DNA from: Flavobacteriaceae bacterium PS02337
Lineage (GTDB): Bacteria > Bacteroidota > Bacteroidia > Flavobacteriales > Flavobacteriaceae
Assembly (NCBI GenBank): GCA_029959285.1
Contig: JASCOE010000006.1
Coordinates: forward strand, 62,001 to 126,000
Direction: 5' to 3'
DNA length: 64,000 nt
A model generated the notes under the pieces. That model searched no databases, was not told the DNA's origin, and saw nothing but the letters and a program-made list of their open reading frames with translations. Positions 28,810 through 50,561 of this stretch are shown one piece after another. Positions within the stretch are counted from its first letter, which is position 1; the number at the start of each line of letters is the position of its first letter. A program made the position numbers and the translations under genes.

Positions 28810-29481
28810 TTATAAAAAATTACGCAATTCTTTTATTTCTTCTGGATTTGCAGTTTCTGAATTATCTGTAATTGCTGATGAATGATAAAATGTAAGATCT
28901 AATTTTTCATGAAGCAATTTTATATTCGAAGATCTTAAACCGCCGCCTGGCATAATTTCTATTCGATCGCCAGCTAGTTCTTGAAGTCTTTCTAAAGCAA
29001 GAATTCCTTCTTCAACATTTACACCTTGTCCAGAAGTTAAAATAGTTTTGAAACCACATTCAATTACAGTTTCCAATGATTTTTCTGGATTTTTAACTAC
29101 ATCAAAAGCACGGTGAAAAGTACAAGAAAGCGGATGCGCTAAATGCACTAATTCTTTATTTTGTTTTTTATTTACTTTTCCATTTTCCTTCAAGATTCCA
29201 AAAACAAAACCATCAACTCCTAGTTTTTTAAACTGTTTAATATCTTGCTTCATTTCTGTAAGCTCTTCATCAGAATAAACAAAATCGCCGCCGCGAGGTC
29301 TTATGATAACATGCATTTTAATGTTTAAACTTTCGCGGACTTTTAGCACCAAAATAGAATTTGGCGTAGTTCCTCCCAATTTCATGTTCTCGCATAATTC
29401 AATTCTGTCTGCACCATTTACTTGTGCAATTAAGGCCGATTCATAATTGAAGCAAGCTATTTCTAGTTGATTTTTTTTCAT
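28810..29481 (-). CDS. cutC: CutC-family protein (TIM barrel)
   Basis: 223 residues, full length for the family. CutC is a TIM-barrel protein first linked to copper tolerance; its true enzymatic role is debated. Motifs: ADRIELCENMKLGGTTPN at the start, IIRPRGGDFVYSDEE, HRAFD, LTSGQG and MPGGGLRSSNI. Cytoplasmic. Between it and the next gene lies a degenerate palindromic repeat cluster. Confidence 0.9.
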   Translation of the reverse strand: MKKNQLEIACFNYESALIAQVNGADRIELCENMKLGGTTPNSILVLKVRESLNIKMHVIIRPRGGDFVYSDEELTEMKQDIKQFKKLGVDGFVFGILKENGKVNKKQNKELVHLAHPLSCTFHRAFDVVKNPEKSLETVIECGFKTILTSGQGVNVEEGILALERLQELAGDRIEIMPGGGLRSSNIKLLHEKLDLTFYHSSAITDNSETANPEEIKELRNFL

Positions 29482-29550
29482 TAGTATTTTATTAAAACGA
29501 CTTCGACTCTCCTTAGCCTTACAAACTTCTAAACAATTATGTTCAATCTT

Positions 29551-29619
29551 TGTCTCCCTGAGCGGAGTCGAAGGGCGCTCCTATTGGAACGTGGGCTTCG
29601 ACTCCGCTAAGCCTGACAA
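29551..29619. repeat. Palindromic element copy A, left of GIY-YIG gene
   Basis: 69 bases. Arms CTGAGCGGAGTCGAAG (29558-29573) and CTTCGACTCCGCTAAG (29596-29611) around a loop with ATTGGAACGTGGG. Ends TGTCTC and CTGACAA. Copy B at 30061-30129 is in the same orientation and 61 of 69 bases are identical. Degenerate related halves flank it at ~29498-29524 and ~29630-29652. Confidence 0.88.
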
Positions 29620-29662
29620 GTAATAGGTGTTCTCCTGAACAAAATCGAAGGCTAATTTACTA

Positions 29663-29986
29663 CTAAACGTTCTTTTTATAAAAATTTTTATGAGTTGTTT
29701 TATTTAAACATTCTGATAATTTTAGTAAATCTTCCCATTTGTCCTTTATTATAGCTTCTTTCTTTTTTCTACTCCACCCTTTCACTTGTTTTTCAAAAGC
29801 AATAGCTTGATTTACATCGTTAAACTCTGTACAAAACACCAACTCTAAAGGCCTTTTATTATAAGTATAACTCTCTTTATTCAAACCATAATTATGTTCA
29901 TTCATTCTTCTATCTATATTATTTGTCATTCCTGTGTAATAACTTCCATCTGAACATTTCAAAATATATACATAATATCGCTTCAT
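29663..29986 (-). CDS. Small GIY-YIG nuclease-domain protein (UPF0213/YhbQ-like)
   Basis: 107 residues, one GIY-YIG domain. Core strands YVYILKCSDGSYYTG carry the GIY and YIG equivalents (Tyr5-Val-Tyr7 and Tyr17-Thr-Gly19), followed by the conserved NIDRRMNEHN helix (Arg26/27, His31) and the metal-binding glutamate in AIAFEKQVKGW (Glu64). A basic KGWSRKKKEAIIKDKWEDLLKL tail completes the family; ~16 further residues extend beyond. Such proteins cut or nick DNA, but many family members have no defined role. It stands alone on the minus strand, bracketed at ~45 and ~75 bases by palindromic copies A and B. Confidence 0.88.
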   Translation of the reverse strand: MKRYYVYILKCSDGSYYTGMTNNIDRRMNEHNYGLNKESYTYNKRPLELVFCTEFNDVNQAIAFEKQVKGWSRKKKEAIIKDKWEDLLKLSECLNKTTHKNFYKKNV

Positions 29987-30060
29987 TAATCTTTAATTTA
30001 TTTAAATTATTTTTTTTATAAATGTAAGAAAAAACTGCATGTTTGTTTATTCTCATTTTA

Positions 30061-30129
30061 TGTCTTCCTGAGCGAAGTCGAAGGGCGTCACAATTGGAAC
30101 GTGGGCTTCGACTTCGCTCAGCCTGACAA
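30061..30129. repeat. Palindromic element copy B, right of GIY-YIG gene
   Basis: Perfect 16-base arms CTGAGCGAAGTCGAAG (30068-30083) and CTTCGACTTCGCTCAG (30106-30121). Same loop core ATTGGAACGTGGG as copy A. Differs from A at eight positions, including one compensatory pair in the stem (G-C to A-T). Confidence 0.88.
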
Positions 30130-30233: not shown

Positions 30234-31241
30234 TTACCATTTGATAATAGCACTTGCCCAAGTAAATCCACTTCCGAAAGCTGCTAAAACTACAGTATCT
30301 CCAGATTTGATTTTTCCTTGTTCCCAAGCTTCTGTCAAAGCAATCGGAATAGATGCTGCCGTTGTGTTTCCGTATTTCTGAATATTGTTATGAACTTGAT
30401 CGTCTGTCAGTTTGAATTTATTTTGAATGAATTGTGAAATTCTCAAATTCGCCTGATGCGGAATCAACATATCAATATCTGAAACTTGAAGACCGTTTGC
30501 TTCTAATCCTTCATTGATAACTTCTGCAAAACGAACAACAGCATTTTTAAATACAAATTGTCCATTCATGTAAGGATAATAACTTTCGTCATTTGGGTCA
30601 TTATCTGCAATAATATCTGTTACCCAACGAGCTCCCATTCCTGGTGCTTGCAAAGCTAACTCTTCAGCATGTTCTCCTTCAGAATGTAAATGCGTAGAAA
30701 GAATTCCTTTTGTTATATCTTCTTCACGGCTCAAAACTGCTGCACCTGCTCCATCTCCAAAAATTACCGAAACTCCACGTCCACGTGTTGTCATGTCTAA
30801 TCCTGTAGAATGAACTTCTGAACCAATTACTAAAATGTTTTTATACATTCCAGTCTTAATATATTGATCTGCCACAGAAATTGCGTACACAAATCCTGAA
30901 CATTGATTTCTAACATCTAAAGCACCAACAGTTCTTAGACCTAAATCTCTCTGAACCAAAACTCCTGGTCCTGGAAAATAATAATCTGGACTTAATGTAG
31001 CAAAAACTACAAAATCAATATCTTCTTTGGCAACGCCAGAACGCTCAATTGCAATTTTAGCTGCTTTTACTCCCATTGAAGTCGTAGTGTCTTCTCCACG
31101 AATAATGTGTCTTCGCTCCTGAATTCCAGTTCTTTCCTGAATCCATTCGTCATTGGTATCCATTATCTTAGACAAATCATCGTTAGTCACCACATTAGAA
31201 GGAACATAATATCCTAAACCAGCTATTTTTGAATGATACAT
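30234..31241 (-). CDS. fabH: Beta-ketoacyl-ACP synthase III
   Basis: FabH condenses acetyl- or branched acyl-CoA with malonyl-ACP to start fatty acid synthesis. 335 residues, thiolase fold. Catalytic triad is complete: Cys114 in RNQCSGFVYA, His262 in PHQANLRI, Asn292 in YGNTTAAS. FGDGAGAAVL and AFGSGFTWASAIIKW are typical. It stands apart from other fab genes here and has its own terminator. In Bacteroidota several fabH copies are common; this copy could serve a secondary acyl pathway. Confidence 0.93.
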   Translation of the reverse strand: MYHSKIAGLGYYVPSNVVTNDDLSKIMDTNDEWIQERTGIQERRHIIRGEDTTTSMGVKAAKIAIERSGVAKEDIDFVVFATLSPDYYFPGPGVLVQRDLGLRTVGALDVRNQCSGFVYAISVADQYIKTGMYKNILVIGSEVHSTGLDMTTRGRGVSVIFGDGAGAAVLSREEDITKGILSTHLHSEGEHAEELALQAPGMGARWVTDIIADNDPNDESYYPYMNGQFVFKNAVVRFAEVINEGLEANGLQVSDIDMLIPHQANLRISQFIQNKFKLTDDQVHNNIQKYGNTTAASIPIALTEAWEQGKIKSGDTVVLAAFGSGFTWASAIIKW

Positions 31242-50457: not shown

Positions 50458-50561
50458 TTGTCATCCTGAGGAACGAAGGATCTTCACTAGTAGCTCTGCA
50501 AAGATTGTCAATTTTTGTAACGGAGTTTCTTGTGGAGATCCTTCGTTCCTCAGGATGACAA
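50458..50561. repeat. Long dispersed hairpin element, copy 2
   Basis: 30-base arms (50458-50487 and 50532-50561), starting TTGTCATCCTGAGG and ending CCTCAGGATGACAA, one G-T pair. Same family as 1970-2074; the loop also shares AGTAGCTC. Five substitutions between the copies are compensated on the opposite arm. Confidence 0.87.

Follow-up and report, generated by a model that had tools for sequence, protein, structure and literature searches.

Tagged palindromes around a small GIY-YIG nuclease gene in Flavobacteriaceae: a probable REP/RAYT-like partnership on an unrelated, Slx1-like enzyme

Introduction

Why should a lone gene for a small GIY-YIG nuclease lie between two copies of one and the same palindrome? 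The question is raised by a 64,000-nucleotide stretch of DNA from Flavobacteriaceae bacterium PS02337, hereafter the window. The first-pass annotation of this DNA likened the arrangement to that of REP elements flanking RAYT proteins, and supposed that the enzyme processes the palindrome and spreads it, or once did.

A related group of repeats is already on record. According to the portions available to us of the paper by Di Nocera, De Gregorio and Rocco (2013), REPs of the CGTC/TGTC-tagged superfamily occur in several phyla, including Alphaproteobacteria and Bacteroidetes, mostly in intergenic regions and as pairs in opposite orientation; they have a stem of 8-9 bp beginning with AT and a loop of 4-5, and apparently "lack a dedicated transposase" (PMC3733652). 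A specific enzyme partner would address the missing transposase of these repeats.

Results

The locus in the window

The features of the locus are the following.

28810..29481, minus strand: cutC-like gene, one border of a filled-or-empty site
29501..29524, minus strand: single arm, decayed (20/24 to the consensus used), belonging to the A/B cluster
29551..29619, no strand assigned: palindrome copy A, two inverted REP-like arms with a GTC tag at each outer end
29627..29650, plus strand: single arm, decayed (17/24 to the consensus), adjoining the 3′ end of the nuclease gene and belonging to the A/B cluster
29663..29986, minus strand: standalone small GIY-YIG nuclease gene, 107 aa, UPF0213/Slx1-like fold (Pfam PF01541, E 4e-19)
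30061..30129, no strand assigned: palindrome copy B, orientation as copy A
30234..31241, minus strand: fabH-like gene, the opposite border of the site

We take the genes at 28810..29481 and 30234..31241 to be cutC-like and fabH-like, respectively. The geometry initially claimed, two direct copies with a single GIY-YIG gene inside, holds: copies A and B run in the same direction, with 61 of 69 bases identical (alignment within the window), and the GIY-YIG gene is the only listed ORF of at least 60 codons between them. Both copies form hairpins on both strands (DNA folding, z -4.7 to -5.9; 0/200 shuffles equally stable). The arm CTGAGCGRAGTCGAAG, with up to two mismatches allowed, has four matches in the 64 kb, all at this locus, vs. 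0.02 expected. At the position of the decayed arm 29627..29650, genome G136 (locus L022) has an exact arm. Elsewhere in the window, at 1970-2074 and 50458-50561, there are two inverted dimers of another palindrome family (class E-like, TTGTCATTCCGAG / TTGTCATCCTGAGG).

Anatomy and copies of the arm

In the whole genome that holds the window (G000), the exact arm gave 53 matches vs. 0 for the reversed pattern. An unpaired GTC precedes the hairpin in 52 of the 53 distinct arms. The two positions on either side of CTGAGCGRAGTCGAAG covary, the inner pair being complementary in 51/53 arms (shuffled mean 22.5) and the outer pair in 41/53 (shuffled mean 18.6), with 0/5000 shuffles as high for either. 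An arm by itself is a hairpin of the REP type, tagged with an unpaired GTC; the usual unit of about 69 bp consists of two such arms, inverted. Outside the window, the genome has 20 inverted pairs with their tags outward and 15 single arms, at 32 loci; inverted dimers are thus the majority, though not a large one. The palindromes are mostly intergenic, with only 3 of these 35 copies falling within mechanically called ORFs.

The arms of this class, class A, read GTCA-NN-CTGAGCGAAGTCGAAG-NN, where the stem is imperfect but compensating and does not start with AT. Just as the CGTC/TGTC REPs described in the available part of PMC3733652, they are short, mostly intergenic hairpins in which one end carries an unpaired GTC-type tag, and they lie mostly in inverted pairs; the tag is shared both through the GTC of the 52 arms and through the tag words that top the de novo 8-mer lists. 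They differ from those REPs in their imperfect stems and in the missing AT start.

A second palindrome family, class E (GTCATYYYGANGNANGARRRATC), has 129 matches in the genome vs. 0 when the pattern is reversed. No class E spacer was found with a regular expression. The Rfam search gave six matches, every one under the gathering score.

Copies at several solo sites sit within an outer palindrome GCCACAGATTAAAAGG..., and, since several copies are nested in another palindrome, the moving thing may be the compound. Class A elements at L137, L139, L140, L141 and L007 are nested in an outer palindrome of the form GCCACAGATTAAAAGGATT...AATCCTTTTAATCTGTGGC, which is in turn repetitive and has many matches among relatives. 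The spacer is longer, at about 55 bases, in some class A arm pairs (L005, L136, L138, L149); in the first three it contains AATCTTTGT[AC]GAG, a word found also between the class-E-like arms of L367, and in L149 it contains, in reverse, a word from the spacer of L136. It looks as if arms of one class had been placed in the frame of another. The intergenic site of L154 is occupied by class A pairs in two species, and a third has a class-E-like palindrome there (G000, G077, G088; L358, L367).

The enzyme

The GIY-YIG nuclease fold ascribed at the outset to the gene product was confirmed. Pfam matches only GIY-YIG (E 4e-19) and the overlapping T5orf172 model, and an NCBIfam search of the protein returned no family. 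In the AlphaFold model of the 107-residue protein (pLDDT 81, with low confidence in the C-terminal tail), the closest solved folds are the UPF0213 proteins 1zg2 (E 2e-6) and 1ywl (E 2e-4), followed by the branched-DNA nuclease Slx1 of fungi (E 4e-3 and weaker). Tyr7, Tyr17, Gly19, Arg27, His31 and Glu65 are invariant across the 33 aligned sequences; we take the conserved Tyr, Arg and Glu to be the catalytic residues of the GIY-YIG domain. The protein is predicted to be a minimal Slx1-like nuclease, and the fold together with the invariant residues makes the base of a cruciform or hairpin a plausible predicted substrate.

For ten of the 12 close orthologs (L047 and L050 were left out), the median dN/dS was 0.08, as measured in 37 of 45 pairs, the other eight being saturated. 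The enzyme is intact and under strong purifying selection. Apparent decay was seen, among the matches listed, as an early stop in the nuclease gene of G052 (L050) and as gene fragments with stops in G060:C20.

In domain and fold, the protein is like the UPF0213/COG2827/YhbQ/Slx1 nucleases, COG2827 being presumably the UPF0213 family to which it belongs. The annotation of E. coli yhbQ reads "DNA damage response nuclease"; [CGT]GTCA words occur within 300 bases of this gene, with no obvious tagged palindrome pair as judged by eye. The part of the open-access literature that was searched ascribes no role in palindrome biology to these nucleases. As far as the available text goes, Caulobacter has three small COG2827 genes whose role was left open, and a Caulobacter COG2827 gene is reported to have an SOS box and to be under SOS control (PMC1839093).

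These relatives, the SOS-controlled Caulobacter gene and yhbQ with its annotation, fit repair rather than mobility. They favour an alternative in which the nuclease is a caretaker that resolves cruciforms or hairpins without spreading them: palindromes would harm replication in its absence, so that both are retained together. The Slx1-like structure-specific fold and the strong purifying selection suit this alternative as well; the evidence on its other side comes from the genomic comparisons below.

Palindromes accompany small GIY-YIG genes in Flavobacterium

A protein search found relatives of the enzyme in 122 of 150 sampled Flavobacterium genomes (among the matches listed). The 30 loci listed were examined, and 60 regions, most of about 20 kb, were picked by hand: 40 of palindrome classes A-D, 17 of class E and three multi-domain controls. 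Each of the 12 close orthologs, counting that of the window, has arms no more than about 550 bases away, on both sides in 11 (up to three mismatches) and on one side only in G091. De novo self-comparison revealed repeats at 17 of 18 more distant loci, many as arrays and many on both sides; by the same comparison only L039 had no flanking repeats. Arrays of arms crowd around the gene. Over 41 loci, the skeleton GAGCN{2,3}GTCGA was counted 174 times at distances of up to 600 bases from the gene (49.2 kb in total) and 21 times at distances of more than 2 kb (628 kb in total).

Might this be a coincidence, or a shared intergenic hot spot? As the palindromes are mostly intergenic, any gene flank is enriched in them over coding DNA. 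Nevertheless, when only intergenic spacers of the 41 regions were compared, the motif was still present in 77/80 GIY-adjacent spacers vs. 19/315 others, a figure obtained with the skeleton plus class D motifs that were read off these same loci; the arm skeleton alone gave 55/80 vs. 10/315. In the 17 class E regions, the class E motif was found in 21/33 GIY-adjacent spacers vs. 5/161 others. A hot spot does not predict the matching of palindrome class to protein clade either (see below), and we regard this explanation as very improbable. The palindrome is clearly commoner near GIY-YIG genes than elsewhere, as the first-pass annotation had proposed, and its association with small GIY-YIG genes is strongly supported as a general one, wider than first proposed.

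The genome of the window provides internal controls in three multi-domain GIY-YIG genes, which we take from their length to be UvrC- or exonuclease-like; a hairpin scan showed no hairpins beside them. In motif counts these genes are a weak control, with the motif in 2/6 adjacent spacers vs. 2/33 others (p 0.1). In the same hairpin scan, the three further small GIY-YIG genes of the genome showed hairpins of class E on a single side.

The palindrome class follows the protein clade

We labelled each of 57 loci with the commonest of five palindrome classes (one of 58 was dropped as a 36-residue fragment) and placed the labels on the protein tree. The class changes six times, against a minimum of four and a shuffled mean of 32.4, with 0/200 shuffles as low; the classes were defined after the loci had been inspected, and the shuffles test clustering only. 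Classes E, D and B each form one side of a starred branch, while A and C, which have similar motifs, are intermixed over some of the tree; L082 is set off by a long branch. The class E labels were assigned leniently, at a threshold of 4 mismatches in 15, and label counts of 2 are therefore possibly due to chance, the 21/33 vs. 5/161 given above being the stricter figure.

Paralogues within one genome differ in class: A and E in G000; A, C and D in G066; C and D in G139; C and E in G112; A-like and D in G098. The genome-wide abundance of a single repeat cannot explain this. The results allow us to conclude that the palindrome class follows the protein clade, most branches of the enzyme family having a palindrome of their own. 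Such class-specific pairing would also be expected from co-evolved recognition by a nuclease that only resolves the palindromes.

Gene and palindromes come and go at one site

Matches to cutC were found in 72 of 150 genomes; among the 30 loci listed, fabH adjoins cutC in 26 and does not in the other four. The gene is present at 11 of the 26 cutC-fabH loci, together with 3 to 11 arms, and the other 15 have neither; G079 and G114 have a different palindrome in the spacer. In the tree built from the 26 cutC genes, the filled/empty state changes nine times, at least seven of the changes being forced by starred branches, and is scattered like random labels. The count could be inflated by exchange of the cutC region itself. 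The gene and the palindromes thus come and go jointly at one site.

It had been reasoned beforehand that a gene fixed in one place among unrelated flanks would make the unit coincidental. The location is indeed the same in 11 of 12 close relatives, the window included, but there the arms always adjoin the gene, at up to three mismatches on both sides in 10 of the 11 and on one side in G091; the ortholog of G066 lies elsewhere, again among arms.

Filled and empty alleles with at least seven changes would also be produced by a selfish unit of the homing type, which would cut the fabH-cutC spacer and similar sites, be copied there as a whole into the empty allele and leave the dispersed palindromes as by-products. 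Free-standing homing endonucleases have an extra DNA-binding domain and are inserted into conserved genes. Here neither feature was found: Pfam shows no domain besides GIY-YIG in the 107 residues, and the site is an intergenic spacer. Moreover, related genes lie at many sites, yet with the same palindrome class alongside, and gene-free palindromes far outnumber the gene (53 exact arms and one close gene, among the matches listed). GIY-YIG is known as a homing-nuclease domain, according to the part of PMC1564403 available, and we still consider a homing origin improbable.

The solo copies gave a similar picture of turnover. The flanks of seven copies from the genome of the window were sought in six relatives, and six of the sites could be aligned, with none resolved for L137. 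At L007, the element is present in G000, G015 and G083, and the site is empty in G109, G088 and G077, G057 being uninformative. At L139, it is present in G000, G015, G077 and G109, the site is empty in G088 and G057, and G083 has another palindrome. The flanks at the empty sites are diverged. The palindrome copies are dispersed and polymorphic between relatives. The suggestion of mobility gains support from such presence/absence polymorphism at orthologous sites, the cutC-fabH site included. Alignment of filled and empty sites revealed no clean target duplication or uniform insertion junction, the flanks being too divergent, and among all fetched pairs there were 12 candidate empty sites, none clean and several of them repeat arrays (an earlier mining had given one). 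Compared with L140 of the window's genome, the element at the orthologous site is in reversed orientation in G109, G088 and G015 (L140 set against L351, L361 and L357), as if flipped in place.

Palindromes do not strictly depend on the gene

Intact paired elements were present in 12/12 genomes with a close ortholog, including G052 with its stop, vs. 14/138 without (Fisher 6e-11). Thirteen of the 14 gene-free carriers have genomes of at least 5 Mb, as do most of the 12 with the gene, and shared ancestry thus accounts for part of the difference. Among the 33 genomes of at least 4.5 Mb (12 with the gene, 21 without), the medians were 7 vs. 1 for intact pairs (p 0.03) and 61.5 vs. 34 for arms (p 0.12), the latter counted with a pattern that takes in class C arms as well but not those of class B. 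The expectation that genomes lacking the gene have fewer or older copies was therefore borne out only weakly, for intact pairs and not for arms.

The data do not bear out a strict dependence on the gene. A large genome can be arm-rich even when it has no close gene, and gene-free G079 (22) and G108 (17) have more intact elements than any gene-bearing genome (at most 14). The intact copies in gene-free genomes are the main result against a strict link. Their persistence in 14 such genomes indicates that the gene is unnecessary for it, and another enzyme could act in trans; relic copies in gene-free genomes are also what the repeated change of state at the cutC-fabH site leads one to expect.

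The same 14 genomes bear on the idea that the nuclease only resolves the palindromes, which leaves unexplained how these stay intact without a close gene. Nor does it explain the joint appearance and loss of gene and arms at one site, or the crowding of arrays around the gene. In spite of the features of the enzyme that favour it, we hold this idea to be rather unlikely.

The association extends beyond the genus

We then scanned public genomes with an alignment of ten proteins and kept the best 80 loci. They are mainly from Bacteroidota, with a few titled Alphaproteobacteria, Reyranella, Verrucomicrobia, Calditrichota, Clostridiales, Leptospiraceae, Syntrophales or Desulfobulbaceae. With no tag assumed and all phyla pooled, the top 8-mer within 500 bases of the gene was ATGACAAA, i.e., TTTGTCAT, near 48/80 loci vs. 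4.6 expected, and the median repeat coverage was 0.25 and 0.23 on the two sides vs. 0.015 far away; 70 of the 80 had a coverage above 0.08 on one side. In the intergenic control, the motif was found in 107/133 GIY-adjacent spacers vs. 50/343 others. A scan for a perfect stem of at least 6 after TGTCA in these 80 loci gave 5 near and 16 far, and several permuted tags were higher near the gene. As the stems are imperfect, this strict scan was judged unsuited and was replaced by the tag-free word counts and the intergenic control.

In the class of Reyranella massiliensis (G153), which we take to be Alphaproteobacteria, relatives were found in 78/190 genomes, and the 30 loci listed carry the same words. 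De novo counts in 40 regions of this class placed GTCATCCC near 20/40 genes vs. 2.8 expected and CGTCATCC near 15 vs. 3.7. The word [CT]GTCAT[CT] was in both flanks in 16/40 regions vs. 1/107 far windows, and the intergenic control gave the motif in 39/68 adjacent spacers vs. 23/164 others. The class E matches begin with GTCAT by virtue of the pattern used, and many alphaproteobacterial copies begin likewise. The nearest tags point outward on both sides in 16/39 alphaproteobacterial regions (far 5/142) and 24/76 of the public set (far 2/218), but in only 2/41 Flavobacterium regions. A relative is present in 22/25 alphaproteobacterial genomes with at least ten pattern matches vs. 78/190 overall (p 3e-7, uncorrected for ancestry and genome size).

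Finally, the palindromes could be moved in trans by an ordinary transposase, e.g., of the RAYT type, with the GIY-YIG gene as a trapped passenger. The persistence of palindromes without a close gene agrees with this, and Di Nocera and co-authors, in the available part of their paper, left open the mobilisation of CGTC repeats by a broad range of transposases (PMC3733652). However, a passenger would not be expected to have a clade-specific palindrome beside successive paralogues of one genome, nor to recur with palindromes in unrelated bacterial classes, which makes this possibility more doubtful still than homing.

Discussion

Taken together, the results suggest that the gene and its palindromes probably form a REP/RAYT-like partnership built on an unrelated, Slx1-like enzyme. 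From the comparisons above we infer recognition, nicking, the direction of cause and the mode of copying, as follows. The GIY-YIG protein would recognise palindromes of its own class when these are extruded as a hairpin or cruciform, and would nick them at or close to the stem base that bears the tag. The nick would start copying or recombination, which may seed the palindrome at new places and may also enlarge the palindrome arrays around the nuclease gene.

The resemblance to REP/REPIN-RAYT systems lies in the tagged hairpins, the inverted pairs, the nuclease gene flanked by them and the dispersed gene-free copies. The early description of the locus as RAYT-like in geometry with a different protein family stands as far as tagged hairpins flanking a nuclease gene are concerned; the tag is GTC and not GTAG. 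Apart from the tag, the REPtron, as characterised in the available part of PMC3733652, has a Y1 HUH tyrosine transposase in place of the GIY-YIG enzyme. The CGTC/TGTC REPs, for which the same portion of that paper reports no transposase, differ from the palindromes studied here in that the latter are associated with a GIY-YIG nuclease.

The same pairing of gene and palindrome in other bacteria means that the enzyme may be the missing mover of a widespread class of repeats. We lean towards the view that nucleases of the UPF0213/COG2827 type are the missing dedicated enzymes of the CGTC/TGTC superfamily, and that they constitute a second, independently evolved, transposase-free REP system in Bacteroidota, Alphaproteobacteria and probably several other phyla, where nuclease lineages have hairpins of their own. 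If true, the partnership would assign a role to proteins of a widespread family, and two unrelated nuclease folds would have converged on one lifestyle. The class-specific nuclease-palindrome pairs suit cleavage assays directly.

Among the papers listed in searches of open-access PubMed Central, none was met that links GIY-YIG to REPs. In the text accessible to term searches, RepRanger 2025 (PMC12306157) contains neither "GIY-YIG" nor "RAYT", the 2018 HuH paper (PMC6006769) lacks "GIY-YIG", and the GIY-YIG phylogenomics paper (PMC1564403) lacks "palindrom"; the available part of PMC9465073, the one listed paper with both terms, has GIY-YIG and "repetitive extragenic palindrom" genes side by side, unlinked. 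A literature search with the arm sequence found no match, and one with six tag words gave no evidently relevant title among the matches listed.

Two minor observations concern the surroundings of the genes. Homologous neighbours (clusters c4, c6, c7, c8, c12) are shared by most genes of class C and by one of class D (L060-L066, L068, L085), as if these genes occupied a favoured genomic island. In G047, G134, G139 and G074, paired GIY-YIG copies lie 0.66-0.97 kb apart (among the matches listed; L033 also gave a self-match in the self-comparison), which suggests amplification of the gene-plus-palindrome unit.
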